The translations under genes were made by a program, and so were the position numbers. A model generated the notes under the pieces. That model had not been told where the DNA came from. It worked only from the letters and a program-made list of their open reading frames with translations, and did not search any database. A stretch of 64,000 nucleotides of DNA. It comes from Myxococcales bacterium. GTDB lineage: Bacteria; Myxococcota; Myxococcia; Myxococcales; Myxococcaceae. This document shows, piece by piece, positions 9,439 to 37,372 of the stretch (its first letter is position 1; each line of letters starts with the position of its first letter). The stretch is taken from positions 1-64,000 of the forward strand of contig JACPVI010000044.1 of assembly GCA_016191815.1 (NCBI GenBank), written 5' to 3'.

Positions 9439-9443
<5 letters not shown>
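9242..9443. repeat. MITE-like element with 26-bp inverted repeats
   Basis: The left end 9242-9267 and the reverse complement of 9418-9443 match at 22 of 26 positions around the core GAGGCTGTGA-x-GA-x-ATCCCC. Two small hairpins lie inside (GACCG/CGGTC near 9268 and CGTATC/GATACG near 9320). There is no coding potential I trust. The right end includes the rpoD stop codon. It could be a miniature transposable element or, as RNA, a long closing stem acting as a terminator for rpoD. Confidence 0.55.
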
Positions 9444-11562
<2,119 letters not shown>

Positions 11563-11683
11563 GGGACGGGTTCTCCTCAGGATTACAGGCGCTTGGACGT
11601 GGGCCGGCCGATGTACCGCAGATCCGAGGGCGTTACAACGCGCGTTCTCAACCAACCCCTCGGGGCGGTTTCTTCCCAGGGGC

Positions 11684-13432
11684 CTACCCGGGCTCCTCGA
11701 GCACCCGGCGTTTGAGGGCCAACAGCTCGCTCCGATCCGAGAGGAGTCGCCTGGTTTCATCGGTCAAGTCGCTGGCTCCGGCGAGGGAGGCGGTCACCCG
11801 GGCGATGTGGGAAAGCTGGTCGTCGATCCGCCGGATTTTCAGCCTTCGACACGCGCCCAGAAAGCGCGGTTCCAGCTCGGAATCCTCCTTGGGAAGCTCC
11901 CGGCCGGCCGCCTCGAGGGCGCCCTTGAGGGCGGGCGAGGCTTCGAAGAGGGAGTCCTCGGCGGAGGCTCCGGAGGCAAGGTGGGCCAACAGGGTCCGAA
12001 GCCCAGGGTGCAGAAGCTCGTCGGAGAGGCGGAAGGGGTCCTTGGAGATGAGCTTCCGCTCGCGCAGGGCGAAGGCGGCGAAGAGGGCTTCGAGCGGGTC
12101 GACCTTCGGCTGCCCGTCGAGCAGGCGGGGGGGCTTGGGCGCGGGGCGGACGGGCTGGGTCTTGCCGCGTAAGGAGGCCTCCAGCTCCGCGGCGGGGAGG
12201 CCGAAGTGGCGGGAGAGGGCGGCGAAGAAGGCGGAGCGGGTGAGCCCGACCGGGAGCTGGAAGGCCACCGGCCTCAACCTCTCCAGGGCGGCCATCTTGG
12301 CCTCGAAGGAGTCGGCGGGCCCTCCGGGGAGGACGGTCTCGAAGAGGTACGAGGTGAGCGGCGGCGCCGACTCGATGAGCCCACCGACTTCGTCGGCGCC
12401 TTGCTTTCTGGCGAAGGTGTCGGGATCTTCGCCCTCGGGGAGGGTGGCGACCTTGGCGTTGGCTCCGGCGGCGAGCAGGGGTCCGGAGAGGCGCTCGATG
12501 GCCTTTCGCCCGGCCTCGTCGCCGTCGAGGAGGAGGACCAGCTCCTTGGCTTCGCAGCGGGAGAGGAGGGAGAGGTGCCCCGGGGTGAGGGCGGTGGAGC
12601 AGAGGGCGACGGCGTTCTTCACCCCGGCGGCGTGGAGGCCGATGCAGTCGAAGTAGCCCTCCACCAGGACGGCGGACTTGCGGCGGCGGATCTCCTCCCG
12701 GGCCTGGTCCATGCCGTAGAGGGTTTCGCTCTTGTTGTAGAGCCTGGACTCGCGGGAGTTGATGTACTTGGCGCCCTCGCCCTCGAGCAGTCGGGCCCCG
12801 AAGGCGATGGTGCGCCCCTCGGGGGAGCGGATGGGGATGGTGAGGCGGCCGCGGAAGAAGTCCACGTAGCCCTCGCCGCTCTTCCGCTGGGCGATCAGGC
12901 CGGCTTTGACGCCGGGGTCGATGAGGCCGCGCTGGTAGAGGTGGTCGGCCAGCTCGCTCCAGGCAGGGGAGGAGTAGCCCAGGCCGAAGGCCTTGGAGAC
13001 GGCCTCGGCGACGCCGCGGCCCTCGAGGTAGTCGCGGGCTCTTTTCCCGGCGGGCTCCCACAGCTTCTGGCGAAAGTGTTCCTGGGCGAAGTCGGTGGCC
13101 TCCTTGAGGAGGGCGCGCTCCCTGGCGGCGGGGTCGACGGCGGCGTCGAGGTCGACCCCGGCCTCGCGGGCGAGGTCCTTCACCGCGTCGACGAAGGTTT
13201 TTCCGAGGTAGCGCTGGACGAAGGCGATGGCGTCGCCGCCGGCCTGGCAGCCGAAGCACTTGAAGCGGCGCAGCTCGGGGGTGACGTGGAAGGAGGCGGT
13301 CTTCTCCTGGTGGAAGGGGCAACAGCCCTTGTAGCTGCGGCCGGACTTCTTGAGCTCCACGTGCCGGGACACCAGGGCGACGAGGTCGGTGCGCTCGAGG
13401 ATCTCCTCGATCTTGTTCTCAGGGATCAGCAC
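11684..13432 (-). CDS. dnaG: DNA primase DnaG
   Basis: A 582-residue primase that makes RNA primers at the replication fork. It starts at GTG 13432 ([18 protein letters not shown]), which aligns with the usual DnaG N-terminus; no strong Shine-Dalgarno is visible. The CHC2-type zinc finger is [12 protein letters not shown] with KCFGCQAGG. The RNA-polymerase-like core has FRGRLTIPI, and the Toprim domain has [16 protein letters not shown] and [12 protein letters not shown]. The C-terminal helicase-interaction domain is about 150 residues and poorly conserved. It is followed by rpoD 121 bases downstream and preceded by rpsU, the classic macromolecular-synthesis order. Confidence 0.97.
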
Positions 13433-16994: not shown

Positions 16995-18257
16995 TCAGGC
17001 CTTTTTCGCGCGCTTCTTGCGGATGAGCCCGTGCTCCTCCAGCAGCCGGTAGAAGTAGGAGCGCGCCACCCTCGCCTCCCTGGCCGCGGCGGTGGGGCCG
17101 CCGTGCTCCTTCAAGAGCGCCTCGAGGTAGCTCCGCTCGAACGCCTTCATCGCCCGCTCGCGAGCCTCGTGGAAGTCGGCCTCCCCGCTCGGCCGCTCGG
17201 GCAGCGGTGCCTTTCCGAAGGTGGCGGCCCGCTCGATGACGTTCTCCAGCTCCCGCACGTTCCCCGGCCAGCGATGCGCAAAGAGCGCCGCCATCACCTC
17301 CGGCCCGAACCTCGGCCTTGCGCCCGGCCTCGCCCTCGCCGCGAACGCCGTCGCGAGCAGGGGCAGATCCTCCAGCCGCTCGCGCAGCGGAGGGACCTCG
17401 AGGACGATCGCCGCCAGCCGATAGTAGAGGTCCGCCCGGAAACGGCCCGAAGCCGCCAGCCGCTCGAGGTCCTCGTGCGTCGCCGCGATCGCCCGGAAGT
17501 CCGAACGCCTCGTGCCACCCTCGCCGAGCCGAACGAAGGACCTGGTGTCGAGGGCGCGCAAGAGCCCAAGCTGCGCCTGTGCGGGCATCGCCGCCACCTC
17601 GTCCAAAAAAAGCGTCCCCTGGTCCGCGGCCTCGATCGCCCCGGCGCCCTCGCCCTCCCCGAACAGGGCGGCCAAGGCGCCGCCTCCGGCCAAGGAGCCA
17701 CAGTCGAGAACCTGGAACGGCCCCGCCAGCCTCGCCGACAAGGCGTGGAGCGCCCGCGCCAGCCTCCCCTTGCCGCTGCCCGTCTCTCCCACCAGGAGCA
17801 CCGGAGAATCAGTCGGGCCGACCCGCTGGGCCTGCGCGAACAGCCGCCGCATCGCCACCGACTGCCCCAGCATGCCCTCGCACTCGGTGGACTCGCTCAG
17901 CGCGGAGTGGGGCAGCGCCGCCGGCAAGAAGGCAATCCGCGTCTTCCCGACCAGCACCGTGCTCCCGATCGGCAGCTCGGCAGTGTCGATCCTCGCGCCG
18001 AGATAGCGGGTGGCGTTCTTGCTCCGCAGATCCGTCACCCGCACCACGCCTCCGCGAAGCTCGAAGCTCGCGTGGCGCCGAGACACCGTCGGATCGGTGA
18101 GCAAGAGCTGGCAGTCCGGCGCGGTCCCCACCACCGACACGCCATCGCCTAGCGCGGCTTCCCGGCCCCGGTCCGGGCCCTCCAGCACGCGGAGCCGCAC
18201 CCGCTCGAGCGCCGTCCCACTCCCCCCGAGCTTCATCGAAACCGTGCGCTCCGCCAT
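16995..18257 (-). CDS. FHA-AAA+-HTH regulator lacking the GAFTGA loop (paralogue 1)
   Basis: A 420-residue protein starting at ATG 18257. FHA domain about residues 25-105 (TVSRRHASFELRGG, then SKNATRYLG, where the usual SKNGT Gly is Ala). NtrC-type AAA+ domain about 125-345 with Walker A GETGSGKGRLARA, Walker B GTLFLDEVAAMP, FRADLYYRL and HRWPGNVRELENV. Fis-like HTH at the end (GGPTAAAREARVARSYFYRL). Between LFG and GTLFLDE the sigma54-contacting GAFTGA loop is replaced by a short EGEGAGAIEAADQ. It is probably a phosphothreonine-reading ATPase that does not remodel sigma54 holoenzyme in the usual way. Divergent from the peptidase gene at 18393. Confidence 0.88.
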   Translation of the reverse strand: MAERTVSMKLGGSGTALERVRLRVLEGPDRGREAALGDGVSVVGTAPDCQLLLTDPTVSRRHASFELRGGVVRVTDLRSKNATRYLGARIDTAELPIGSTVLVGKTRIAFLPAALPHSALSESTECEGMLGQSVAMRRLFAQAQRVGPTDSPVLLVGETGSGKGRLARALHALSARLAGPFQVLDCGSLAGGGALAALFGEGEGAGAIEAADQGTLFLDEVAAMPAQAQLGLLRALDTRSFVRLGEGGTRRSDFRAIAATHEDLERLAASGRFRADLYYRLAAIVLEVPPLRERLEDLPLLATAFAARARPGARPRFGPEVMAALFAHRWPGNVRELENVIERAATFGKAPLPERPSGEADFHEARERAMKAFERSYLEALLKEHGGPTAAAREARVARSYFYRLLEEHGLIRKKRAKKA

Positions 18258-18364
18258 CGGGCCGGATGATACGTCCCCCTTCGGCGGACACCGGGTGGAG
18301 CGCCGATGTTCCAAAACAATCAATAAAACCAGTTGCTTACAAACAACCAACGCTGGGCAGCGGC

Positions 18365-18372
18365 GACAATCC
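18365..18372 (+). promoter_or_regulatory. GACAATCC box upstream of the peptidase gene
   Basis: GACAATCC lies 20 bases before ATG 18393. The same octamer lies 17 bases before the papain-like protease start at 22712, and both leaders then end in CCGCC-ATGCCCATC. The upstream stretch 18310-18355 is strikingly AT-rich for this genome. The pair may be a shared promoter or operator element. Confidence 0.35.
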
Positions 18373-18392
18373 ACCCCAGAGGAGAAGCCGCC

Positions 18393-19229
18393 ATGCCCAT
18401 CACCGCCACCACCGCCTCGCGCGTCACGGCGAAGAGCTTCGAGCAGCCGGCCAGGCTAGGGGACCAGAGCGCCGCCATCCGCCAGGTGGAGCAGATGCTC
18501 CACGGCCTGGGCTACTTCCCAGGGAAGGTGGACGGGTTCTTCGACGAGCACACCCTCTCCGCGCTCAGGCGCTTCAAGAAGGCGGACCCGCAGGTCGCCA
18601 ACCAAGGCAACGCGATCACCTCTCGGGTGTACTCGAACCTCCGCGACGCGGTCCGGAAGGTGGAGAAGGATCTGAGCTCGCTCGGGAACGATCCGGGCAA
18701 GGTGGACGGGCGCTGGACCGACAACACCACCGGGGCGGTGAAGCGCTTCCAGCGCAAGCACGACATGGAGGTCACCGGCCGGGCCGGCGAACACACCCGG
18801 AAGCGGATCGCCAAGGCGCTGGGTCCCGATCTCGGGAAGCCGAAGCACGCCACCGGGTACGTGAACGGCCGCCCTTTCGGAATCACCGTCTACCCGGTAG
18901 GGCAGGGCGAGTACCTGCGGGCGGACGCGGCCAAGGCCTACGTGCAGATGATCGCCGCCGCCAAGCGCGCGGGGGTGAACCTCTACGCGGTGAGCGGCTT
19001 CCGCACCATGGACGAGCAGCGGAAGCTCTACCAGGCCTACCTCAACGGCACCGGGAACCTGGCGGCGCGTCCGGGCTACTCCAACCACCAGGGCGGCATC
19101 TCGATGGACATCGGAGGGGTCGGCGGCTACGGCACCCGCGCCTACCAGTGGCTCAAGAATCACGCCCGCCGCTTCGGCTTCGTCAACGACGTCTCCGGCG
19201 AGTACTGGCACTGGACCTACAAGCGCTGA
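18393..19229 (+). CDS. Peptidoglycan peptidase: two PG-binding modules plus VanY-type DD-carboxypeptidase
   Basis: A 278-residue protein from ATG 18393, with AGAGGAGAAG before it. Two PG_binding_1 repeats (AAIRQVEQMLHGLGYFPGKVDG at about residue 27; LGNDPGKVDGRWTDNTTGAV at about 96) precede a VanY/M15 peptidase domain with GFRTMDEQRKLY, SNHQGGISMDIGG and EYWHWTY, the zinc-binding H...D...H set. It should cleave D-Ala-D-Ala or related peptide cross-links. There is no signal peptide, so export must use another route or follow lysis. The first residues MPITATT resemble those of the protease at 22712 (MPIDLSV). It overlaps the convergent kinase gene by 13 bases. Confidence 0.87.
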   Translation: MPITATTASRVTAKSFEQPARLGDQSAAIRQVEQMLHGLGYFPGKVDGFFDEHTLSALRRFKKADPQVANQGNAITSRVYSNLRDAVRKVEKDLSSLGNDPGKVDGRWTDNTTGAVKRFQRKHDMEVTGRAGEHTRKRIAKALGPDLGKPKHATGYVNGRPFGITVYPVGQGEYLRADAAKAYVQMIAAAKRAGVNLYAVSGFRTMDEQRKLYQAYLNGTGNLAARPGYSNHQGGISMDIGGVGGYGTRAYQWLKNHARRFGFVNDVSGEYWHWTYKR

Positions 19230-22200
19230 GTGGGAGTTTCCCGGAGCGCGGCTTCGAGCGAGCGCAGCGCGGTGCGGACCAACTCCGAGCGGCTGGCGGA
19301 GGAGGGCCCAGGTCCGTGGGCACGCCGCATGCGCTCCAGCGCCGCCTCCATCCGCCCGGAGGCGATCTCCACGTGCCCGCGGTAGATGTCCAGCGCGGCG
19401 AGCATGGGAGCGTCGGCCACCTCTTTCAAGGTCGCCTCCGCCTCGGAGGAGAGCCGCTCGCCTTCCTCCCTCCGTCCCCGGCCCGAGAGCGCCGCTCCGA
19501 GCGCGCCGCGTACGAAGGCGCCGAAGCGGCGGTCGCCCACCTCAAAGAAGAGTCCGGCCGCCCGCCGGTAGTGGCCGATCGCCTCGTCCAGCCTCAAAAG
19601 CTCGTGCTCGGTGAGCCCGAGGTTCATCAGCGCGATGGCCTCCCAGCGGCGGTTGCCGATCAGCCGGTGCACCGCGAGGGCGCGCTCGTAGAGGGCCCTG
19701 GCGGCGTCGGGGCGGCCGCGGTCGCGCATGAGATCGCCCAGGTTGGAGAGCCCGATGCCCTCCGAACGGACGTTGCCCAGCTCTTTGTGGATGGAGAGCG
19801 CCGTCTCGTAGCTCTCCGCGGCGGCCTCCAGCTCGCCCAGGGCTTGCTGGAGCGCGCCGAGGTTGGAGCGGACGATGGCCTCGAAGCGAAGGTCTCCGGC
19901 CTCGCGGAGGAGCGCGAGCGCCCAGGAGTAGTTCTCCCGGGCGTCCTCCAGCCGTCCCAGCTCCTGCTGCAGATCGCCCAGGTTTCCCAGCGCGCGCCCC
20001 TGCACGCGGCCGTCCGCTGCCTGCTCGAGGAGCTCGATGGCTCGGAGGTACCTCTCGAGCGCCGCTTCGCGCGCTCCGGTGAGCCGCTCGATCCCCGCGA
20101 GGTAGGCCTCCTCGCGCCCCTCCAGCGCGGTGTCTTTGGCCGCGCGCGAGAGCTCGAGCGCCCGCCGGTAGTCCGTCGCCGCCTCGGCGAGCCGCCCCCG
20201 GGCCTGCCGCGCCCGCCCCCTCGCCTCGTGGCCCTTGGCGAGGAGCCTCGGGTCGGCGCCGGCCGCCCGCGCGAGCGCCCCGTCGAGCCAGGGGAGGTGC
20301 GAGCCGAACGGCCCCCGGGTGGAGAGGAGCGGATCCAGCGCGAGCAGCGCCTCGAGCGCCTGCACCGGGCGCTCTCCCTGCGCCACCGCGAGCAGGTTGT
20401 CCCGCTCGCGGGAGAGCGAGTCCAGCGCCAGCTTTCCCTCTGCGCCGTCGGCGCGCTCGGCCAGCTTCTGGCCCAGGGCGAGGAAGTGCCGGGCGTGCCG
20501 CTCGCGGACGGGAGCGGAGGAGGGGCCCAGCTTCTCCTGGGCGAAGGCGCGCACGCTCTCGTAGAAGCCGAACCGCCCGCCCAAGAGCTCCCGAAGGAGC
20601 GAGCGGCGCACCAGCGAGCGCAAGGCTTCGGTCGCGGTCTCCTCGCCCTCGGCACGGGTGAGATCGAGCACGGCCTCGGCGGCCTGGGAGTCGAACCCGC
20701 CCCGGAAGACGGAGGCCTGCGCGAGCGCGGACTGCTCGCGCGGCCCGATGAGCGACCAGCTCCACTCCAGGGTGGCGCGCAGGGTGGACCTTCTCGAGGC
20801 GGGAGCCCCGGGGGCTCCCAGAAGCTCCAGGCGCCTGGGGAGCCGTTCGAGGAGCTGGGCCAGGGTGAGCACCGAGAGCCGCGCCGCCGCCAGCTCGATG
20901 GCCAGCGGGAGCCCATCCAGCTGGCGGACGATCTCCGCGGCGGTCAAGAGCTCGGCGCGGCCGAAGGAGAGGCCCTCTCGCGCGGCCATCGCCCGCTCGA
21001 CGAACAGGCGCACGGCGTCGGTGGAGGCGACGTCGTCCTCGGGGCCGGGGAGCTGGAGCGGCGCCACCTCCAGGCACTCCTCGCCGGCGATGCCCAGAGG
21101 TTCCCGGCTGGTGACGAGGAAGAGCGCCTTGGGGGCGGCGGCCAGCCATCGCCCCACGGAGAGGGGCGCGTGCTCCACCACGTGCTCGAAGTTGTCGAGC
21201 AGGAGCGCGATCGATCCACGGCTGCTGAGCGCGTGGCCCACCTGCGCCACCGCGTCGTCGGTGGTCTTGCCCGCGGTGAGGGAGAGCGAGAGCGCCCGAG
21301 AGGCGGCGGCCAGGATGCCGTCCACGTCGGTCGCCTCGGAGAGGTCGCAGAACCAGATGCCTCCCCGGCGCGCTGGGAGCTGAGTGGCCGCCTCGATGAG
21401 CAGCCGCGTCTTCCCCGCGCCGCCCGGACCGCGCAAGGTGAGCAGCCGGACGCCGGCCAGGAGCATCCGGTGGATTTGGGCCAGCTCGGGCACTCTCCCC
21501 ACGAAGGAGTCGCCTTGCGGCGGAAGGTTGTGGCGCGGCCGATCGAAGGTGGTGAAGCTCTCGAGGGCCGGCTGGGAGGTGGGGTCGGTCTGCGCGTCCA
21601 GCGTCTGGGTGTGGGGCCCATGCGGGTGGGCGGCCGGCGTGCGGAGGGTCGACTCCACCGGGCTGCCGAGCTGCTCCAGAGGCACCGCCGCCTCGAAGGC
21701 GAACAGCTCGCGCAGGTAGGCGGCGAGGTGGGAAGGGCCGGCGGCGAGGCCCTCGCGCAGGACGATCGACTCGAGGCGGTCGCGCAGTTCGCCCGCGCTG
21801 GCAATCCGGCGCCGCTGGTCGCGGGAGAGGGCCTCCAGGCAGAGGGCGTCGAGCTCTGCGCACACCGCCGGGTTCTTCGCCGAGGGAGGCTCGACCTCGC
21901 ACGCCGCCACTCGCCTCAAGGTGTCCGCGTCGGTGGGTCCGCGGAAGAGCCGTTCTAAGGTGAGCATCTCCCACAGCACCACCCCCGTCGCGAAGACGTC
22001 GGTGCGGTGATCGACCCGTTCGCCCGCGGCCTGCTCGGGGGACATGTAGGCCGCCTTCCCGCGCACCACCCCGGTGGCGGTGCGGTGCAGGTGGCCCTTC
22101 GCCTTGGAGACGCCGAAGTCGATCAGCTTGACGCCGCCGGCGTAGCCCAAGAGGACGTTGTGGGGTGTCACGTCGCGGTGGACCAGCTCCAGCGGAGCGC

Positions 22201-22600
22201 CGTCGGGGCCGGGGCACCTCCGGGCGAAGTCCAGCGCGGCGCCCACGTCCGCGGCGATGCGGCAGCAGGCGCCCAGAGGGAGCGGTCGCCCACGGTCGCG
22301 CGCGCGCCGGATGAGCGACCAGAGATCCTGTCCGTGCACCAGCTCCATGGCGAGGTAGTAGGCGCCCTCGGCCTCGCCCAGCTCGAAGAGCTGAACGATG
22401 TTCGGGTGGTTCAGCCTGGCCGCGGTCCGCGCCTCGTCGAGGAAGAGCGCCAAGAGCTGCTCGTCCTGCGACAGCTCGGCCCGCATCCGCTTGATGACCA
22501 ACAGCTTCCCCAGCGACGGATCGCGCGCCAGGTATACCTCGCCCATCCCGCCCTCGCCGAGGCGGCGCAAGAGCTCGTACTTTCCGAGGGGCACCGACAT
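19217..22600 (-). CDS. Ser/Thr protein kinase fused to a predicted ATPase and TPR array
   Basis: About 1127 residues from ATG 22600 (an in-frame ATG at 22642 adds 14). Residues about 8-275 are a Hanks-type kinase: GEGGMGEVYLARD, catalytic Lys in VIKRM, HRDVTPHNVLLG, DFGVSKA. An STAND/AfsR-like NTPase follows, with P-loop RGPGGAGKTRLL near residue 388 and Walker B IALLLDNFEHV near 467, then SREPLGIAGEE. From about residue 700 to 1100 there are many TPRs (GNLGDLQQELGRLEDARENY-type units). No membrane segment is evident. It probably senses a signal through the TPR/NTPase part and phosphorylates Thr residues read by the FHA proteins on either side. Confidence 0.9.
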   Translation of the reverse strand: MSVPLGKYELLRRLGEGGMGEVYLARDPSLGKLLVIKRMRAELSQDEQLLALFLDEARTAARLNHPNIVQLFELGEAEGAYYLAMELVHGQDLWSLIRRARDRGRPLPLGACCRIAADVGAALDFARRCPGPDGAPLELVHRDVTPHNVLLGYAGGVKLIDFGVSKAKGHLHRTATGVVRGKAAYMSPEQAAGERVDHRTDVFATGVVLWEMLTLERLFRGPTDADTLRRVAACEVEPPSAKNPAVCAELDALCLEALSRDQRRRIASAGELRDRLESIVLREGLAAGPSHLAAYLRELFAFEAAVPLEQLGSPVESTLRTPAAHPHGPHTQTLDAQTDPTSQPALESFTTFDRPRHNLPPQGDSFVGRVPELAQIHRMLLAGVRLLTLRGPGGAGKTRLLIEAATQLPARRGGIWFCDLSEATDVDGILAAASRALSLSLTAGKTTDDAVAQVGHALSSRGSIALLLDNFEHVVEHAPLSVGRWLAAAPKALFLVTSREPLGIAGEECLEVAPLQLPGPEDDVASTDAVRLFVERAMAAREGLSFGRAELLTAAEIVRQLDGLPLAIELAAARLSVLTLAQLLERLPRRLELLGAPGAPASRRSTLRATLEWSWSLIGPREQSALAQASVFRGGFDSQAAEAVLDLTRAEGEETATEALRSLVRRSLLRELLGGRFGFYESVRAFAQEKLGPSSAPVRERHARHFLALGQKLAERADGAEGKLALDSLSRERDNLLAVAQGERPVQALEALLALDPLLSTRGPFGSHLPWLDGALARAAGADPRLLAKGHEARGRARQARGRLAEAATDYRRALELSRAAKDTALEGREEAYLAGIERLTGAREAALERYLRAIELLEQAADGRVQGRALGNLGDLQQELGRLEDARENYSWALALLREAGDLRFEAIVRSNLGALQQALGELEAAAESYETALSIHKELGNVRSEGIGLSNLGDLMRDRGRPDAARALYERALAVHRLIGNRRWEAIALMNLGLTEHELLRLDEAIGHYRRAAGLFFEVGDRRFGAFVRGALGAALSGRGRREEGERLSSEAEATLKEVADAPMLAALDIYRGHVEIASGRMEAALERMRRAHGPGPSSASRSELVRTALRSLEAALRETPTQRL

Positions 22601-22686
22601 GCGCGCTAGAATGGCATCAGCTTCGTGTGGGAGAGCGCCCACCAGGGCGCACCCGGGCGCACAGAAACAGCTTAGGAGTCTGTCGA

Positions 22687-22694
22687 GACAATCC
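22687..22694 (+). promoter_or_regulatory. GACAATCC box upstream of the protease gene
   Basis: Second copy of the octamer seen at 18365-18372, here 17 bases upstream of ATG 22712. It could be part of a common control element for the two effector-like genes. Confidence 0.35.
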
Positions 22695-22711
22695 TACTGG
22701 AGTCATCCGCC

Positions 22712-24220
22712 ATGCCCATCGACCTGTCGGTAAGGAGAAGCCCCCGCCTCGCGCCCCGAGCGCCGGCGGCGGGAGCAGCCCAGCGCTCCCGGCCCGAGGT
22801 TCGGATGGATCGCTTCGGAGAGAGCCGCTTCGAGGCGCAGGCGCGCCGGGTGGCGCGGAACGAAGGTGACCGCTTCGAGCCGGCGCAAAGGACCCTCACC
22901 ATCGGGGTGGCCACCGACGACTCCACCGGCGACGGGACGCAGGGCGCGGCCGCGGCGCACGGCGGGCGCGCGGAGCTTCCTTCGTACTTGAAGCACCCGA
23001 AGCCGGAGCGCCGCGAGCATTTGCCGCTCAGCCAGCGCGAGCGCGTCGAGGTTTCGCGCGCCATCGCCAAGTCCGCACTGGCGCCGGAGCAGAAGCTCGC
23101 GCTCCGGCAGGCGGCGGAGGATCCGGCCACCGCGCGGAGGCTGGATCGCATCCTCGACGGGGCCCGCGAGCTTCCGGACGGCGCCCGGGCGAAGCTGCTC
23201 GGCCGGGTGGCCAAGGATCCTTCCGGCTCCCAGGCTGCGGTGATCGACCAGGTGATGCGGAGCGACACCTGGGACAAGGTGGGCGAGGACGGGAGGAGGC
23301 AGCTCGCGAAGGTGCTCGGCGCGTCCACCGAGCGCGGCGCGGCGCTCTTGGGCAGGATGGTGGAGAAGACGCCCGAGCGGCTTCTCGACCGGGACAGCCA
23401 CGGGCGCACGCTGCTCGCCAACCTATCGAGGCTCTCGAGCCATCCGCTCAACTCCAGCCTCGACGAAGCGGGGAGGAGCGCGATCCTCGAAGACGTCATC
23501 CGCGACGTGGCGATGCCCAAGCGGGTGGACCAGGGGAGCAAGGGCGATGTGGGCACCTGCACGGTGGCGTCGATGCAGTACGAGCTGGCGCGCGACAACC
23601 CCTCCGAGCTGGCCCGGCTGATGGTGGGGCTCACCGGCCCGGACGGGAAGGTGAAGATGAGAAACGGGGAGAGGCTCTGGGTGCAGCCGGGCTTCCTCGA
23701 GAACCCCAACGACTCCCGCAGCCTGGCGGACAGCATCTTCCAGTCGGCGGCGATGGAGTACGCCAACGGCAAGTTGAACTACGACGCCAGGCGCGACATC
23801 TCCAGCCCCAAGGGCAAGCCGGGGAAGGTGGCGCAGCGCGGGCTGGACGGCGCGCAGCAAATCAGGATGCTGGAGGCGCTCTTCGGCACCAAGTACGAGG
23901 CGGTGGGGAAGGGAAACCTCGCGCACCAGAAGAAGCTGATCGAGTTCCTGAGGAGCCGGCCTTCGTTCGAGAGCGAGCGGCCGATCATCCTGAACCTGGA
24001 CATGGGGAAGACCAACCACGCGGTCACCTTCATGCGCGTGGAGAACGGAAGGGTCTTCTACCGGGACCCGTACGGCGAGGTGGAGTCGATGAGCGTGCGC
24101 GAGCTGCGGCGGCGACTCACCGCGGTGCACGCGCCCGAGGGCCAGCTCCCCGGCGGGCTCGCGGCTGGGAGCACCAAGCCGCACAGCGGCGGGGTGGCCA
24201 CCGACGACTCGACCGGCTGA
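22712..24220 (+). CDS. Predicted papain-like cysteine protease with GVATDDSTG tags
   Basis: A 502-residue protein with no signal peptide or membrane segment. Residues 1-260 are charged and helical. A clan-CA-like catalytic set is readable: Gln274 in VDQGSKGDVG, Cys283 in GTCTVASMQ, His436 in TNHAVTFMR and Asp452 in YRDPYGE. The exact nonapeptide GVATDDSTG occurs twice, at residues 65-73 and as the last nine residues (494-502), framing the protein. The N-terminus (MPIDLSV) and the GACAATCC leader resemble the peptidase gene at 18393. I infer an exported or self-processed protease effector. No close family comes to mind, and a transglutaminase-like activity is the main alternative. Confidence 0.65.
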   Translation: MPIDLSVRRSPRLAPRAPAAGAAQRSRPEVRMDRFGESRFEAQARRVARNEGDRFEPAQRTLTIGVATDDSTGDGTQGAAAAHGGRAELPSYLKHPKPERREHLPLSQRERVEVSRAIAKSALAPEQKLALRQAAEDPATARRLDRILDGARELPDGARAKLLGRVAKDPSGSQAAVIDQVMRSDTWDKVGEDGRRQLAKVLGASTERGAALLGRMVEKTPERLLDRDSHGRTLLANLSRLSSHPLNSSLDEAGRSAILEDVIRDVAMPKRVDQGSKGDVGTCTVASMQYELARDNPSELARLMVGLTGPDGKVKMRNGERLWVQPGFLENPNDSRSLADSIFQSAAMEYANGKLNYDARRDISSPKGKPGKVAQRGLDGAQQIRMLEALFGTKYEAVGKGNLAHQKKLIEFLRSRPSFESERPIILNLDMGKTNHAVTFMRVENGRVFYRDPYGEVESMSVRELRRRLTAVHAPEGQLPGGLAAGSTKPHSGGVATDDSTG

Positions 24221-24222
24221 CG

Positions 24223-25488
24223 TCAGTCCTTGGCCCGGAGACCGTGCTCGGCCAATAACTCGTAGAGGTAGGAGCGGGACATCTTCGCCTCGCGAGCGGC
24301 GCGGGTGGCCGAGCCCTGGTGCTTTCGCAGCAAGGCCTCGAGGTAGCTCCGCTCGAAGGCCTTCACCGCCAGGAGGCGAGCCTGGCTGAAGCCCTCCGCG
24401 CTCGCGGCGGCCTCCGCTTCGGTGGGCAGCGCCTCGGTGACACCCACGGCGAGCGTTCGCTCCACCAGGTTTCGAAGCTCGCGGACGTTGCCCGGCCAGT
24501 GGTACGCGGTGAGGCAGGCCAAGCTGGCGCCGGAGAGCTGGAGGTCGTGCCCGAGCTCCTTGGCGAATCTCTCCGCGAGGAGCGGGATGTCGTCGGGCCG
24601 CTCGCGCAACGGTGGAACCTGCAGCGTCACCGTGGAAAGCCGGTGGAGGAGGTCTGCTCGGAACTGGCCCTTGGCCAGTAGCTCTTCGAGCGGGACGCGC
24701 GAGGACGCCACCACCCGGGGGCTCCACCTTCGGGGCGCTGCCTCGCCGGGGCGAAGGGCCTCCTGGCGGTCCACCGCGCGAAGGAGCATCGGCTGCACCT
24801 TTGGGGGCAGCTCCCCGACCTGGTCCAAGAAGAGGGTGCCATCGTCGGACGCCTTGCCTTGGCTCGGCGCGGTGTTGGCCGAGGCGGGACCGAACAGACG
24901 CGTTGCGGCTAGCGGTGGAGTGAACGTGGCGCAGTCCACCGAGAGGAAGGGCCCGCTGCGCCCGGAGAGGGCATGGATGGCTCGGGCGACTTCTTCTTTC
25001 CCGGCCCCGGCTTCCCCGAGGAGAAGCACCGTGGCCTCGGTCGGAGCGACCAGCTCGAGCTGCCGGAAGAGCCGCCGCATCGGAGTCGAGCGGCTGAAAA
25101 GGGCGCCCACCTCCTCGCGAGTGGACAGCTCGTCGGTGGCGGGAGCGGCGGGGAGGAGGGCGAGCTTGGTCGCTCCGAGCTCGATCACCCCACCCACCGG
25201 GACGCTCAGGGAGTCCACCTTGGCTCCGAGGTGGCGGGTGCCGTTCTTGCTGCCGAGGTCGCGCACCTTCACTCGTCCGGCCGCGAGCGACAGCTCCGCG
25301 TGTTGGCGAGAGACGGAAGGGTCGGAGAGCCTGAGCCCGCACCCCTCGGCGGTGCCGGCGATCAGCGGCGTTAAGGAGAGCCGCGCCTCCGCGCCCGCGT
25401 CCGCGCCCTCGATGACGCGGATCCGCACCGAGGCGTGCGCGCCCGCAGGAGTCAGCTCGACAGAGCGAGTGCCCTTCTCCTCGGCCAT
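24223..25488 (-). CDS. FHA-AAA+-HTH regulator with Walker B Glu-to-Gln and no GAFTGA (paralogue 2)
   Basis: A 421-residue paralogue of the 16995 gene. ATG 25488 avoids overlap with the upstream PIN gene; ATG 25497 is the alternative. FHA domain with SVSRQHAELSL and SKNGTRHLG; AAA+ with Walker A GEAGAGKEEVARA, FRADLLHRL and YHWPGNVRELRNLV; Fis-like HTH (GSATRAAREAKMSRSYLYEL). The GAFTGA loop is replaced by PASANTAPSQGKAS, and Walker B reads GTLFLDQVGEL, with Gln where the catalytic Glu should be. ATP hydrolysis should be weak or absent. It may work as an ATP-locked DNA-binding partner of paralogue 1. The stop is 2 bases from the end of the convergent protease gene. Confidence 0.87.
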   Translation of the reverse strand: MAEEKGTRSVELTPAGAHASVRIRVIEGADAGAEARLSLTPLIAGTAEGCGLRLSDPSVSRQHAELSLAAGRVKVRDLGSKNGTRHLGAKVDSLSVPVGGVIELGATKLALLPAAPATDELSTREEVGALFSRSTPMRRLFRQLELVAPTEATVLLLGEAGAGKEEVARAIHALSGRSGPFLSVDCATFTPPLAATRLFGPASANTAPSQGKASDDGTLFLDQVGELPPKVQPMLLRAVDRQEALRPGEAAPRRWSPRVVASSRVPLEELLAKGQFRADLLHRLSTVTLQVPPLRERPDDIPLLAERFAKELGHDLQLSGASLACLTAYHWPGNVRELRNLVERTLAVGVTEALPTEAEAAASAEGFSQARLLAVKAFERSYLEALLRKHQGSATRAAREAKMSRSYLYELLAEHGLRAKD

Positions 25489-25489
25489 G

Positions 25490-25930
25490 TCAGCCAACGC
25501 CGCGGGCGGAAAACGGGTTGCGGATCAGCACAGTGCCGTAGAGGCGCCCTTCTTGGAAGTCCTCGGACCAAAGCTCGCCCAGCCCGTAGTGCTCCGCGTA
25601 GGCCCACAGGTGCGCATCGAACCAAGGAAGCCCGTAGGCGGCCGCCCCTCGGAGCGCGGTGCGCATCAAGGCGTCGTTCGGGTAGAGCACCTCGAAAGTG
25701 GAGAGCATCTCCTCGGCCTCGCGCCGCGCTTCGTTCGGAGCCAGCAAGGGAGCCTCCTTCCCCAGCGGGCGAGTGACCGCTGCGAGGAACTCGACGATCG
25801 CCTGGTGCGGGACACGGACCGAATCACGGGCGATGCCCTCCACGAGAAGCCGCGAGGCGGTCCGCTGCTTTTCCGGGAAGCGAAAGTCGTAGCAGTAGAC
25901 CAGGACGTTGGTGTCAATGAGGGCGGCCAC
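25490..25930 (-). CDS. PIN-domain toxin (VapC-like)
   Basis: A 146-residue PIN ribonuclease. The acidic active-site residues are visible in ALIDTNVLVYCYD, IVEFLAAV, WFDAHLWAYAE and LWSEDFQEG. VapC toxins cleave tRNA or rRNA when their antitoxin is degraded. Its ATG overlaps the antitoxin gene end by 17 bases, the usual translational coupling of type II pairs. The C-terminal YGTVLIRNPF matches the common end of this PIN subfamily. Confidence 0.9.
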   Translation of the reverse strand: MAALIDTNVLVYCYDFRFPEKQRTASRLLVEGIARDSVRVPHQAIVEFLAAVTRPLGKEAPLLAPNEARREAEEMLSTFEVLYPNDALMRTALRGAAAYGLPWFDAHLWAYAEHYGLGELWSEDFQEGRLYGTVLIRNPFSARGVG

Positions 25931-26198
25931 GGTCGTACAGCTCCTCGCGGGTCCAGCCCCGGCTCGCCGGCCTGGCCGCCCTTCGCCCGGCCTGCCGGCG
26001 GCGCTGCCGTTGCATCGCCGCCCTAAAGAGCGCCAGGCGCGCCTTCAGATCCACTGTGGGCTTCGTAGCCCTGGCGGGCAGTACGCGAATGCTCTCTCCG
26101 GCGGGCAGCCACTCGAGCTCGTCGCCCGGGCGGATGCCGTATCGCTCGGCAATCGACTTGGGGACCGTCACCTGGAGCTTGGTGGTGACCTTGCCCAT
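25914..26198 (-). CDS. AbrB/MazE-type antitoxin
   Basis: A 94-residue protein with a SpoVT/AbrB swapped-hairpin domain (KVTTKLQVTVPKSIAERYGI, then RPGDELEWLPAGESIRV) and a very basic C-terminal tail (RQRRRQAGRRAARPASRGW) ending in EELYDRGRPH, the typical toxin-wrapping segment. It should repress its own promoter and neutralise the PIN toxin encoded immediately downstream. No other gene is in the pair. Confidence 0.88.
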   Translation of the reverse strand: MGKVTTKLQVTVPKSIAERYGIRPGDELEWLPAGESIRVLPARATKPTVDLKARLALFRAAMQRQRRRQAGRRAARPASRGWTREELYDRGRPH

Positions 26199-26564: not shown

Positions 26565-28700
26565 CTATCTCCCATGCACCCGCCTCACCGCGAGCTGCCG
26601 CCCCTCGGCGTGACAGGTGGCGCAGGCCTCCGCCCCCGCCGCGCTCGTCATCGTGCTCGCATGCGCCACCGCCTGGACCGAGTCGTGGCAAGAGGTGCAC
26701 GCCGCCGTCGCCGGCGGAATCAGCCTCAGCGCGCTCACCACCCTTGCGTCGCAGAACCGATCGTCGTCCGCCGCCGGCTCCTCGGTGCACGCAAGCTCCT
26801 CCTCGCGCGAGGGCAACACCCCCGCCGGCAACGGCAAGACGAAGCTCTCCGCCGCGTGGCAGGTGCCGCAGTCCCGCCGGTCTCCCGGGAAGCGGACCTC
26901 GCCGAAGTCCACCGGCGTCCCCTCCGGGTTGCCACGGGTCGGCACCGGGAAGCCCCCTAACACGTACGGCTTCTGCGAGAGGTGCTCCCCGGTGTGGATC
27001 TTGTGGATCATCACCTTGAAGTGCACCGACTGCGCGGTCACGGTCGCGCCCTCCACCCGCGCGACCCGCTCGTCGTTGGTGTTGTTGGCGTTGTGGCACA
27101 TCACGCAGTACTCGGGGTTCCGCCGAGTCCCGCCGTGCGCCGCGAGCTCCAGGTGACAGCGGTTGCAACGCGCCACCTCCACCACCGTCCGCCTCGGTGA
27201 GGGCGGGCCAGCCCCCACCGCCGCGTACGCTACCGGGTTGAACGCCGAAGCCGTGGGCCCCGTCGGCCCACCCCGCCGGAAGGTGCCCTCCAGCCCGAAG
27301 GCGAACGTCCCCGCCGCCCCCGCCGGCAGACGCGCCACGTCCGGGAAGACGTACCGGAAGGTTCCGCTCGCCGCATCCACCGCCAAGAGGCTCCCCGCCG
27401 CCCCGGCTCCCTGGATGGTCGCGGTGGCGAAGCTCGCGTAGTCCTCCGTCGGCCCCGCCCACGTCGCCGCCAACCGCGCAAGAGGCGCCGTGACGACGTC
27501 CAGCGGGCGCCCATCCGCCTCCACCTTGAAGGTCAGCGTCGCCGGCTGCCCCGACGCCACGTTCGATACCTCGAGAATGGTCAGCTCAAGGCTCGGCGCC
27601 CCCGGAGCCTGTGCCGGAGTCCGGTGGCTCTCGGCCACACCGACGAGCCCCCCCGAAGGCGGGTGGCAGAGCGCGCACTGCGCGTCGTCCAGTTGCACCC
27701 CGGCCTTGTGGAGCGTCATCCCCGGAGGCACCGGCTCGATGAAGGCCGTCAGGTCATGGCACGAGCCGCATGCCGCGCGGGACGGACGCGTGAGCCATGC
27801 CTCCGCCTGCGCCCCCAGGTGGCAGGTCTGACAGTTCCGGATGTCCTGCGGAAAGGCGACCGTGGAGAAGTCGAATACCGTCTGCCGGAAGCCGATGATC
27901 CGGTACGGCGTCCCCGCCCTCACGCTGGGTAGGTCCTCGCCCCGGTGGATCTTGTGGACCATCACCCGGAAGTCCACCGTGTTGCCGGTGTCCGGGTCCA
28001 AGGCCTGCGCGCTGTGGCAGAGCACGCACAGCGCCGTTTCCCGGCGCGCGCCTCCGTGCGCCTCGAGCGGGTTGTGGCAACTGTTGCAGGCCTGCGTGCG
28101 CACCACCTCGCGCGTCGCGCCGACCTCCCCTCCCGCGGGGATGAAGTGGAACACCGCGTTTGAGACGAACAGCCGCTCGTCCACCGTCCGGGTGGCGTAG
28201 GCGCCCACCGCGTGCATTGCCGAGAGGTCCGTCTGCGCCTTGCTCCCGAAGGTGTAGGTGAAGGATCCCGGGGCCAGCTCGGCGAACGTCCCTCCGGAGT
28301 CGGCCGCCGGCTGGACCGAGGTCTGGCCGGTGATGGGGCTGGTCTGCGGCCGGGTGGTGAGCGCGGTGTACTGGCCGGGCACCAAGGAGGCGTCCTTTGC
28401 CAGCCGCGAGAGCACGAACTGCGGATTGATCTGTCCCGGCGTTCGCTTGCCCTCGCGGTCCAACCGCACACCTTGCTCGTCGGTCAGCGAGAACGCCACC
28501 GTCACCGTCCCGTCCCCGGCAACCGCGGCGGAGCTGATCGACAGCTTCAGTCCCGGCCCAGGAGGCGCTCTTGGAGGTACCGCCGCCGGCCCAGCCGGTC
28601 CAGGCTCTCCCGGCGGTCCGGAGGGCCCCTCCGGGCCCCGCGGCCCCTGGCAAGCCCAAAGCGCGCACCAAAGCGCGAGACCCCAGCAGAGCCTGGTCAT
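26565..28700 (-). CDS. OmcA/MtrC-type decaheme surface cytochrome lipoprotein
   Basis: A 711-residue protein from ATG 28700 (the 24 residues before it in frame are not signal-like). The signal ends at ALWAC, so it is lipid-anchored. It continues with a collagen-like QGPRGPEGPSGPPGEPGPAGP stretch of 21 residues, cited only by its GPxGP pattern. Ten CxxCH motifs are present in two groups of five (CNSCH, CVLCH, CQTCH, CGSCH, CALCH; CNRCH, CVMCH, CGTCH, CTSCH, CATCH), with beta-rich domains between. This is the OmcA/MtrC layout used for electron export to metals or electrodes. MtrA/MtrB-like partners are not in the window. Confidence 0.92.
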   Translation of the reverse strand: MTRLCWGLALWCALWACQGPRGPEGPSGPPGEPGPAGPAAVPPRAPPGPGLKLSISSAAVAGDGTVTVAFSLTDEQGVRLDREGKRTPGQINPQFVLSRLAKDASLVPGQYTALTTRPQTSPITGQTSVQPAADSGGTFAELAPGSFTYTFGSKAQTDLSAMHAVGAYATRTVDERLFVSNAVFHFIPAGGEVGATREVVRTQACNSCHNPLEAHGGARRETALCVLCHSAQALDPDTGNTVDFRVMVHKIHRGEDLPSVRAGTPYRIIGFRQTVFDFSTVAFPQDIRNCQTCHLGAQAEAWLTRPSRAACGSCHDLTAFIEPVPPGMTLHKAGVQLDDAQCALCHPPSGGLVGVAESHRTPAQAPGAPSLELTILEVSNVASGQPATLTFKVEADGRPLDVVTAPLARLAATWAGPTEDYASFATATIQGAGAAGSLLAVDAASGTFRYVFPDVARLPAGAAGTFAFGLEGTFRRGGPTGPTASAFNPVAYAAVGAGPPSPRRTVVEVARCNRCHLELAAHGGTRRNPEYCVMCHNANNTNDERVARVEGATVTAQSVHFKVMIHKIHTGEHLSQKPYVLGGFPVPTRGNPEGTPVDFGEVRFPGDRRDCGTCHAAESFVLPLPAGVLPSREEELACTEEPAADDDRFCDARVVSALRLIPPATAACTSCHDSVQAVAHASTMTSAAGAEACATCHAEGRQLAVRRVHGR

Positions 28701-28844
28701 GATCCCCTCCCGGCCATCGCGGCGCGCCAGTCGCCTCAGCCTGCAGGTGGGGACGCCCGCCCGCCGCGTCAATCCGCGCCGGAGAGGATGCGTCGCCCGG
28801 TCAACCTCCCGAGCGGCTGGCCACCGCCATCGCTCGCCCGGCCA

Positions 28845-30420: not shown

Positions 30421-31332
30421 CTAGGGCCCGCTGATCACCTTGCAGTCGACGCGGTTCCGGCCGGCGCGCTTGGCGCGGTAGAGGTACTTGTCGGCGGCGG
30501 CGATCAGGTCCTCCGGCTGCGAGTAGTCGGAGTCGAGCAGCGTCGCCACCCCCAGGCTGATGGTCACCTTGATCGGCGTGCCCTGGAAGTTGAAGTCCGC
30601 CACGTCCACCGCGCGGCGGCACCGCTCGGCGCAGATGATGGCGTTGTCCTCGGCGGACTCCCGCAAGAGCAGGGCGAATTCCTCGCCGCCGTAGCGGGCG
30701 AACAGGTCCTCCGCCCGGATGGTCTCGTTGATCTTCTGCGCGATGCGGGCGAGCACGTAGTCGCCCGCCTGGTGGCCGTAGGTGTCGTTGATCTTCTTGA
30801 AGTGGTCCACGTCCAGCATCACCATCGACAGCGGCACCCGGTGGCGGAGGCAGTAGGCGAACTCCTTGCGCAGCGTGTCGAGGAAATACTTCTTGTTGAA
30901 GATGCGGGTCAGCCCGTCGCGGGTGGCGGACTCGTAGATGCTGCGCTGGTATTGCTCCTCGAGCTGGTCCTGCAGGGAGAACTTGAGGACGGTATTGGAC
31001 CCCACCTGGATCTTGTCCCCGTCCTGGAGGATGGCGACGCTCACCCGGATGCCGTTGAGGAAGGTGCCGTTGGTCGAACCCAGGTCTACCAGCTGGAAGT
31101 GGCCGCTCGGCGCCAGCGTCACCTTGCAGTGCTTGCGCGAGATGCCGTCGTCCTCTACCTGGAAGGCGGCGTCGGCGCTGCGGCCGAGGACTACCTCCGT
31201 CTTCTCCAGCTTCAACATTCGCCCAATCGAGGCGGCCGACTTGGCGCTGATCACAATCAGATAGGCGTTCTGCGTCCGAGCCTTGCTCAGGAGGTCCGCG
31301 ATGATGTGTACGGATGTCTTCTCCTCGGACAT
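30421..31332 (-). CDS. FHA-GGDEF diguanylate cyclase
   Basis: A 303-residue cytoplasmic protein. FHA domain about residues 45-120 (VVLGRSADAAF, GISRKHCKVTL, LGSTNGTFLNG). GGDEF domain about 140-300 (DGLTRIFNKKYF, MLDVDHFKKINDTYGHQAGD) with an intact active site RYGGEEFALLL and an RxxD inhibitory site (RAED) five residues before it. It should make c-di-GMP, be product-inhibited, and be steered by binding a phosphothreonine protein. Given the kinase at 19217, it is one of three FHA proteins in the window that could read such marks. Confidence 0.93.
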   Translation of the reverse strand: MSEEKTSVHIIADLLSKARTQNAYLIVISAKSAASIGRMLKLEKTEVVLGRSADAAFQVEDDGISRKHCKVTLAPSGHFQLVDLGSTNGTFLNGIRVSVAILQDGDKIQVGSNTVLKFSLQDQLEEQYQRSIYESATRDGLTRIFNKKYFLDTLRKEFAYCLRHRVPLSMVMLDVDHFKKINDTYGHQAGDYVLARIAQKINETIRAEDLFARYGGEEFALLLRESAEDNAIICAERCRRAVDVADFNFQGTPIKVTISLGVATLLDSDYSQPEDLIAAADKYLYRAKRAGRNRVDCKVISGP

Positions 31333-36717: not shown

Positions 36718-37262
36718 AGACTGGACCTGATCCGATTCGGTGGAGTGGGCCTGATCCGATTTCGTGGACAGGTTGGTTAGCAACTTCCCGTCGTCGTCAT
36801 CGTCGGTCGCTGAGCGTAGTCGAACTCCTTTGTCGCGGTGGTGATCGTCGCGTCGGTCGCGTCGTCCGCCGAAGCGAGCGCAGCGAGCGGAGGCGTCCTG
36901 GTGGGCACTCGATTTGGGGGTAGCTGAGGCCACGCCCGCATCGTGTTCGTCGTTCCTGGGGCAAATGCGGCGGTCGTTTTCGCGGGCTCGGGGGCGACAA
37001 CCGCGGTGTCATCGTTTTCTCGCCTCACGCGGCCACCTGCAGTGCGACTGCGTTGCGCTCGAACTCCGCTGGCGATTGGTCGCCATCAGCGCCCAGTGAC
37101 GAGTGGAGCCGCGTCTGGTTGTAGAAGACCTCGATGTAGTCGAAGAGCTTCACCTTCGCATCGCCGGCGCTCTCGAAGTCCTCGCCCAGCTCGCTCTTGA
37201 GCGTGCTGTTCCAGCTCTCCGTCGCGGCGTTGTCGTAGCAGTCGCCTCTTCGGGTTGAGAGC
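36718..37262 (-). mobile_element. IS3-family insertion sequence remnant
   Basis: The end of an IS3-type transposase is readable on the minus strand at 37025-37262. The left side (36725-36771) holds two copies of CCTGATCCGAT around TGGAGTGGG, ending in TTCGTGGACAG, which looks like an IS3-type terminal repeat. The 5' part of the transposase gene and the other end are missing. The 36705-37024 stretch has no other gene I can support. Confidence 0.65.
37025..37262 (-). pseudogene. IS3-family transposase OrfB, C-terminal fragment
   Basis: The frame reads RRGDCYDNAATESWNSTLKSE, then KLFDYIEVFYNQTRLHSSLG and SPAEFERNA. This is the last catalytic block of the DDE integrase domain of IS3 OrfB (the DN-xxES-x-K region with the final Glu). 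The first two catalytic Asp residues and OrfA are missing, and the open frame upstream of 37262 is unrelated sequence. It is inactive. Confidence 0.85.
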
Positions 37263-37372
37263 GGCAATGCCGTCGCGGCCTCTCGAGCTTCGACGCCCTG
37301 CGGCGGGCCGCGGCCCCGGAGGCGGAGTTGGCCGCGCGAGGGAGGGTAGACCAGAGGGGCGCACCGAGCACG

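Follow-up and report, generated by a model that had tools for sequence, protein, structure and literature searches.

The DNA described here is a stretch of 64,000 nucleotides from a Myxococcales bacterium with a genome of 6.77 Mb (positions 1 to 64,000 of contig JACPVI010000044.1, assembly GCA_016191815.1); the whole of this stretch is called the window. Five neighbouring genes in it, labelled A to E, lie on alternating strands (- + - + -), as a sequence-only reading had stated (Table 1). That reading took all five to be one module for regulated lysis, predation or programmed death. The comparisons below point to a smaller association. Genes C and D, which encode a kinase–NTPase–TPR protein and a papain-fold protease, form a divergent pair that recurs at several genomic places, and this recurrence supports the view that the two belong together.

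Table 1. Genes and features of the five-gene cluster, with positions in the window
Feature	Position	Strand	Description	Basis
A	16995-18257	-	FHA-AAA+ (Sigma54_activat) regulator, GAFTGA loop deleted	Pfam, loop alignment, tree
A/B divergent intergenic region	18258-18392		Holds 27-bp element 18305-18331	
B	18393-19229	+	Two PG_binding_1 + VanY/M15 zinc peptidase, endolysin-like	Pfam, PHROG, PDB sequence matches
C	19217-22600	-	Ser/Thr kinase + AfsR-like NTPase + TPR, 1127 aa	Pfam, NCBIfam
C/D divergent intergenic region	22601-22711		111 bp	
D	22712-24220	+	Predicted papain-superfamily cysteine protease, 502 aa	Alignment, AlphaFold2 model, fold matches
D motif copy 1, GVATDDSTG, residues 65-73	22904-22930	+	Variant of family tandem motif	
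D motif copy 2, GVATDDSTG, residues 494-502 (C terminus)	24191-24217	+		
E	24223-25488	-	FHA-AAA+-Fis-type HTH regulator, GAFTGA loop lost	Pfam, loop alignment, tree

The protease D belongs to a family missed by the four profile libraries searched, with no match in Pfam (E ≤0.05, Peptidase_C39 included), NCBIfam, PADLOC or PHROGs. A sequence search of the PDB gave three matches at E 0.045 to 1.1, which were taken as noise. An AlphaFold2 model built from 32 sequences has a mean predicted local distance difference test score (pLDDT) of 82, with 320 of 502 residues at 90 or above. Residues 91-477 mostly exceed 90, and residues 1-17, 19-37, 51-85 and 487-502 fall below 50. The modelled layout is a disordered N terminus, a helical-repeat domain (~91-267) and a protease domain (~268-477) with the catalytic set Q274, C283, H436 and D452. 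Q274, C283, H436 and P453 are invariant in 32 aligned rows, and position 452 is Asp or Asn across 14.

The ten best PDB matches of the D model in Foldseek are C39 peptidase domains (ComA, PCAT1), each at probability 1.00; the best E value is 3e-3, and no match reaches 0.001. Alignment with VIA-align gives the calpain-3 core (Z 10.9, 192 aligned residues, root-mean-square deviation 4.2 Å), phytochelatin synthase (Z 10.4), a C39 peptidase domain (Z 10.2, 130 aligned residues, 2.9 Å) and staphopain (Z 9.8), and papain-like contact-dependent inhibition toxins (CdiA-CT) match as well. The modelled fold and the catalytic set give good support to the assignment of D as a papain-superfamily (clan CA) cysteine protease, and the earlier label of a papain-like protease is therefore correct. 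No subfamily stands out as the closest: the calpain-3, phytochelatin synthase and C39 matches are tied within 1 Z. Neither D nor the peptidase B has a signal peptide by eye, in agreement with the sequence-only reading.

The N-terminal part of D-family proteins bears a striking and variable tandem acidic motif, G-x-x-[DN]-[DE]-[SG]-[IVL]-G. The tally of copies used a shorter pattern, [DN][DE][SGT][ILV]G, and covered only the part ahead of the protease core. At least one copy is present in 22 of 28 close D homologues, and half of the 28 (14/28) carry two to seven copies spaced 7-23 residues apart; these homologues total 75 copies, where shuffled sequences would give 0.45. A further 32 D-type sequences yield one single match, which lacks the leading Gly. 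The D protein of a second locus in the same genome (L048) has six copies of GVNDESI at seven-residue spacing, encoded by a 21-bp tandem repeat of 6.3 copies, and the D of the window carries its variant twice (Table 1), uncounted by the pattern with Thr at the aliphatic position.

Across the genes called in L048-L074 and L132-L208, D-type proteins are the only ones with at least two separate motif copies; the sole non-D match there is one site that was counted double. When 36 genomes were scanned with a stringent DNA pattern for a pair of GAC-encoded motifs, it matched only in D genes, all of them in one genome (G017); this pattern misses other arrays through codon choice and is no proof of restriction to D. 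The motif was considered as a phosphosite for C or an FHA ligand, and this was rejected as a general role, as the repeat unit of some arrays (GVADDGVG, GAFDDGVG) lacks both Thr and Ser.

The partner of D is the large protein C. Pfam assigns it Pkinase (124 bits), TPR_12 (106.5 bits) and AAA_22 (33.1 bits, above cut-off) domains, with NB-ARC at 16.5 bits, below the Pfam cut-off. Residues 358-1037 are AfsR-like by NCBIfam model NF053617, at 59.4 bits and far below that model's cut-off of 1430. The HRD, DFG and Walker A and B motifs are conserved in 13 other C rows of the alignment, and Walker A and B are kept in C. Kinases fused to MalT-like or TPR regions are, as a general kind of fusion, listed in a 2005 article (PMC1262709).

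Pairing of C with D was surveyed by tblastn on 57 D-family loci from named genomes and three loci from the genome of the window. Genes in the fetched loci were called with a simple codon-usage caller; at least in L152, L160, L163 and L166 it overlooked D, and the counts there come from tblastn. A C-type kinase domain lies upstream of D on the opposite strand in 17 of the 57 named-genome loci, at 0.9 kb or less from the protease core in 16 of them and at 2.3 kb in L176. The NTPase-TPR part also matches in 16 of the 17, the remaining locus (L157) being cut off. The close D homologues number 26 (L152-L177); five have too little upstream DNA (L154, L158, L162, L172, L175), and 17 of the other 21 are paired. 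In the search for the protease family alone, which the earlier reading had proposed, members of the D family turned up in 19 of the 60 relatives covered.

C matches of more than 900 residues were found at 13 distinct other loci (20 rows minus contigs fetched twice). They are always divergent from D, with gaps of 38-233 bp, or 1794 bp in L176. A second pair of the same genome as the window is that of L048 ( contig C39, 46500-66000). It lies at a ruvX/prkA locus, and its C and D are 48% and 41% identical to those of the window.

This second location is of the usual kind. Where the contig reaches, the order is ruvX, in some cases a mannosyltransferase-like gene, C, D, a solute-binding (SBP_bac_5) lipoprotein gene, prkA, DUF444 and spoVR. 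Eight of the 17 paired loci show ruvX, 14 the solute-binding protein (SBP), 12 prkA, 11 DUF444 and 9 spoVR; at least three of the paired loci that show no prkA end before its position. The SBP gene follows D in 18 of all 60 loci, with one gene between them in L048. Its product has the oligopeptide-binding protein AppA as its closest PDB sequence and lies equally close to nickel-binding and peptide-binding models in NCBIfam. The surrounding DNA searched for the pairs of the window, L170 and L176 holds no ruvX, SBP or prkA relative, which suggests that C and D moved or were copied as a unit.

Some background is available on the neighbouring genes. According to one study (PMC3188799), prkA in Rhizobium etli heads a three-gene operon that ends in a SpoVR-like gene and is strongly induced by (p)ppGpp, and the prkA orthologue of B. 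subtilis is a spore-coat protein. Full-text literature searches, in which the motif letters were not searched for, recognised no description of the C–D pair.

Several observations weigh against reading C and D as partners in stress-related signalling. Four close homologues with upstream DNA (L169, L173, L174, L177) have no kinase beside D, and neither do 28 of 31 distant D loci in the DNA fetched; the kinases of the other three distant loci lie 608 bp (L206), 2.5 kb (L178) and 5.9 kb (L194) away. Trees of C and D, made by a quick method, agree only roughly: the D of the window is a long branch inside its group (support 87), and its C falls outside a group made up of L048 and all the others (99). 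General synteny may explain part of the conservation at the prkA locus. The same study reports no clear stress phenotype for a prkA mutant of R. etli (PMC3188799).

A third D-type gene in the genome of the window (L049; contig C3, 3500-23000) has a different setting. It encodes a 967-aa protein with a long Ala/Lys-rich N terminus, lies end to end with a gene for an 868-aa Ser/Thr kinase and is also near an AAA+ regulator, a kinase–protease neighbourhood unlike C–D.

The pair in the window is bracketed by the regulators A and E, which are 48% identical across A residues 6-414. Pfam gives A an FHA domain (45.3 bits) and a Sigma54_activat domain (144 bits), and E a Sigma54_activat domain (122.2 bits), an FHA domain (40.9 bits) and a weak HTH_8 (20.5 bits, below the cut-off of 22). 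Of the helix-turn-helix claimed for both proteins, E thus shows a weak sign; the Pfam scan of A reports none. Walker A is present in the Sigma54_activat domains of A (GETGSGKG) and E (GEAGAGKE). The GAFTGA region is altered in both: alignment shows nine residues missing in A and a shortened, replaced segment in E, and all 24 aligned A/E homologues read GAF[TS][GSD]A. Among 20 FHA loci fetched from the same genome, 11 have an AAA+ match: the motif is intact in nine, reads GAFTGS in a tenth and is altered to GALATS in the last; one of the 11 (L231) is also counted among the 24 homologues. Judged by these alignments, the loss in A and E is unusual, yet paralleled within the genome by GALATS.

A groups in the tree with five loop-bearing homologues (support 96/87), and an approximately unbiased (AU) test keeps an A+E clade possible (p 0.305). 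Independent losses in A and E were for this reason dropped as a conclusion, one loss and two being indistinguishable. Loop-less enhancer-binding proteins act at sigma70 promoters in Caulobacter (NtrC) and Rhodobacter, according to one article (PMC10274813). By analogy, A and E most likely act on sigma70-type promoters, and their targets are perhaps the two divergent promoters of the cluster. Candidate sigma54 promoters were rejected: the window has 16 matches with up to two mismatches versus 19.9 expected, and none falls in the A/B or C/D intergenic regions. Shared regulation of B and D was likewise discarded, the local alignment of these two intergenic regions being no better than 11.5% of 1378 window upstream-region pairs. 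That A and E regulate other genes of the cluster is a guess, and the lack of any special likeness between the two regions counts against it. The loop loss itself suggests that FHA regulators can shift off sigma54.

The sequence-only reading had paired the kinase and the FHA domains as writer and reader of phosphothreonine. The FHA domains of A and E keep SxxH and have Thr in place of the canonical GR arginine, which is also missing in 19 of 21 FHA-bearing relatives. The missing arginine weakens the write/read claim, and phosphothreonine reading by A and E is not to be assumed. The broader kinase/FHA theme fared better. In 6 of 20 A-homologue loci (L133, L135, L137, L140, L141, L145) the next gene upstream of the FHA-AAA+ gene encodes a Ser/Thr kinase, with overlapping gene ends in five of the six, and a functional link between A-type regulators and kinases is therefore probable. 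In Mycobacterium tuberculosis, FHA genes had already been noted to cluster with genes for kinases (PMC1262709). Pkinase and FHA matching stretches number 138 and 60 in the genome, some genes having two, and because both domains are this common, little can be concluded from a kinase or FHA neighbour by itself.

The peptidase B contains two PG_binding_1 stretches (83.5 bits in total) and a VanY/M15 domain (76.6 bits), and zinc-ligand His/Asp and Glu/His stretches can be seen by eye in its translation. Its PHROG matches are endolysin families, and its PDB sequence matches are LdcB/DacB-type structures. The gene is part of a multi-copy family, with relatives in 14 of 36 genomes and 10 M15 or PG-binding matching stretches in its own genome, B included. 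The AT-rich 27-bp element between A and B recurs at positions 109255-109281 of contig C2, upstream of the closest M15 paralogue of B. A genome search allowing three or fewer mismatches found these two sites only, with a pattern derived from the same two. The element is possibly an operator common to both paralogues, and because it is common to a distant M15 gene, B may be controlled separately. This endolysin-like peptidase may be no more than a neighbour of the pair.

The five genes as a set appear once in the loci examined. A single conserved five-gene module is not supported, no second arrangement having been found in 80 D-type loci (77 of them from other genomes or contigs, some fetched twice) and 20 A-type loci; the relatives compared include no same-genus genome. 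B stands beside D in the window only among the 80. In no other examined locus does a C–D pair stand together with A/E or B, and in the 20 A-type loci D is missing and C is matched in its kinase domain at most. AAA+ relatives of A/E (35-41% identical) occur in three D-type loci besides the window (L049, L066, L204), and in L066 the relative has an FHA domain and lies with two kinase genes within ~7 kb of D. 

A link between FHA-AAA+ genes and wall peptidases, also part of that proposal, has some backing elsewhere, always without C or D. An A-type gene lies beside a B-like gene in 2 of the 20 A-type loci. In L146 (G018 contig C73, 4991-9210) an FHA-AAA+ gene has an M15 lipoprotein-like gene, whose domain is 47% identical, end to end with it and a kinase next to it; in L150 (G018 contig C389) an FHA-AAA+ gene is beside a PG-binding-domain gene. 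One of 32 B-type loci (L075) has an M15 gene 57% identical to B with an AAA+ gene upstream. L146 and L150 are possible small wall-hydrolase/regulator units, and an association of A, B and a kinase without C–D is possible as well.

Other genes lie around the cluster. Small PIN-domain-like and AbrB-like genes (25490-26198, minus strand), which immediately precede E on its own strand, look by eye like a VapBC toxin-antitoxin pair; none of the other D-type loci examined showed the VapC-like gene. A probable multihaem cytochrome gene with many CxxCH haem motifs by eye (26565-28772, minus strand) also adjoins the cluster. An FHA-GGDEF protein (GGDEF by eye), among the 60 FHA matches of the genome, is encoded a few genes away (30421-31332, minus strand), and a short fragment like the end of an IS3-type transposase is seen by eye at 37025-37267 (minus strand). 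On the other side, a probable dnaG and a possible rpoD lie in tandem (9439-13432, minus strand; by eye, from the N termini), which would put core genes within a few kb of the cluster. Inspection by eye recognised no immunity-like neighbour, and no systematic search for one was made.

The account that we tentatively prefer, while holding it in some doubt, is a composite cluster, in which a duplicated C–D kinase–protease signalling pair is flanked by derived FHA regulators and an endolysin-like gene. On sequence grounds, C–D with its motif-bearing protease appears to be a so far undescribed form of kinase signalling through signal transduction ATPases with numerous domains (STAND). Both proteins are taken to be cytosolic from the signal-peptide inspection. 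The TPR/NTPase part of C would sense a ligand or stress state, NTP-dependent assembly of C would switch on its kinase, and C would then set the activity or targets of D, which would cut chosen proteins in starvation, stress or development. The G-x-x-D-D-x-I/V-G motifs of D may serve as docking or autoinhibitory sites. Control of intracellular proteolysis in starvation or development is suggested by the kinase–protease pairing and by its place beside prkA-spoVR; the direction of control, the ligand and the targets are what we infer.

It is quite possible, if doubtful, that C–D is a unit and that A, B and E are chance neighbours with no joint function with it. The single occurrence of the five-gene arrangement among the examined loci fits this, as do the multi-copy nature of the A-type and B-type families and the upstream element that B has in common with a distant paralogue. 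Less easily explained by chance are the position of A and E on either side of the pair with the same loop lost in both, and the A-type genes found directly downstream of a kinase or beside B-like genes. Moreover, a set of relatives without a same-genus genome leaves short-range conservation outside its scope.

Regulated lysis, predation or programmed death, in which B would cut the cell's own wall or that of prey, D would degrade protein and C, A and E would time both, seems unlikely. Little positive evidence exists beyond the enzyme types and a few A–B neighbourhoods: the endolysin-like B without a visible signal peptide, the CdiA-CT toxins among the fold matches of D, the arrangements in L146, L150 and L075, and the VapBC-like pair adjoining E. 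Set against these are the restriction of the B–D neighbourhood to the window, the own-genome paralogues of B and the element that one of them has upstream, a usual home for C–D that has SBP and prkA genes and no B relative found, and the failure to recognise an immunity-like gene by eye.

An immunity or conflict system resembling NOD-like receptors (NLR), in which C would be a STAND protein that senses phage or another invader and D the protease effector, is to be regarded as improbable. STAND or AP-ATPase-TPR proteins whose genes accompany those of peptidase and kinase effectors are described for multicellular bacteria as conflict systems (PMC8195603, PMC7159879). PADLOC models, run on the five proteins only, match the kinase domain of C (PD-T4-6, MAD6 and others), its TPR part and the AAA+ domains of A and E; these are common domains, and neither B nor D is matched. 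The usual locus, syntenic with prkA and spoVR, is unlike a variable defence island.

Least likely is peptide signalling, in which the D motif array would be cut out as peptides, bound by the oligopeptide-binding lipoprotein found at the usual locus, and C would sense them through its TPR part: tandem arrays of similar units, a protease resembling the C39 processors of double-glycine leader peptides, an AppA-like SBP gene after D and the role of TPR domains as peptide receptors in Gram-positive RRNPP systems speak for it, and it is countered by the lack of a visible export signal in D, the absence of an SBP relative from the window, arrays in loci with no SBP match (L170, L172, L173, L174, L176, L177), a single motif copy in 7 of 18 SBP-linked D proteins and the equally near nickel-binding models. 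A bolder version, a long shot at best, would make C–D and the lipoprotein an undescribed myxobacterial peptide-signalling or self-processing system, in which D cuts out, or is gated by, its tail array and the TPR-NTPase-kinase reads the outcome.

The C–D pair, with its motif-bearing protease, would merit a bench test. Targets of most such kinases are unknown, and the conserved pair gives one of the 138 kinase-domain matches of this genome a ready candidate partner. The pair also sits next to prkA-spoVR genes, themselves of unclear function.

The components can be compared with known systems. AfsK/AfsR-type regulators are under Ser/Thr kinase control, and the NTPase-TPR part of C aligns with AfsR across ~680 residues (NF053617). 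C differs from them in having the kinase on the same chain, in having no SARP DNA-binding domain found by Pfam, and in its low score. B has the PG_binding_1 and VanY domains of phage-type endolysins and LdcB-DacB M15 peptidases, and like them shows no signal peptide by eye. Unlike the phage endolysins, it is a chromosomal multi-copy gene, with no holin or phage genes recognised alongside by eye.

The regulators A and E have FHA and AAA+ parts, and in E a weakly scored Fis-type HTH, in common with the FHA-type enhancer-binding proteins of Myxococcus, reportedly described by Jelsbak et al. in 2005, and differ from them in having no sigma54-contacting GAFTGA loop. They resemble the GAFTGA-less enhancer-binding proteins (Caulobacter and Rhodobacter NtrC, VspR), as covered in one article (PMC10274813), in the lost L1 loop and the predicted sigma70 action. 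Those proteins have an aspartyl phosphorylation site, and A and E instead have an N-terminal FHA domain. The predicted protease domain of D has the papain fold of C39 peptidase domains (ComA, PCAT1) and calpain/papain cores, with the Gln-Cys-His-Asp/Asn set and the DP-G stretch after the His. D differs from the C39 proteins in having no ABC transporter and no Pfam match at E 0.05; in place of the transporter it has a helical-repeat domain and a motif-repeat tail.

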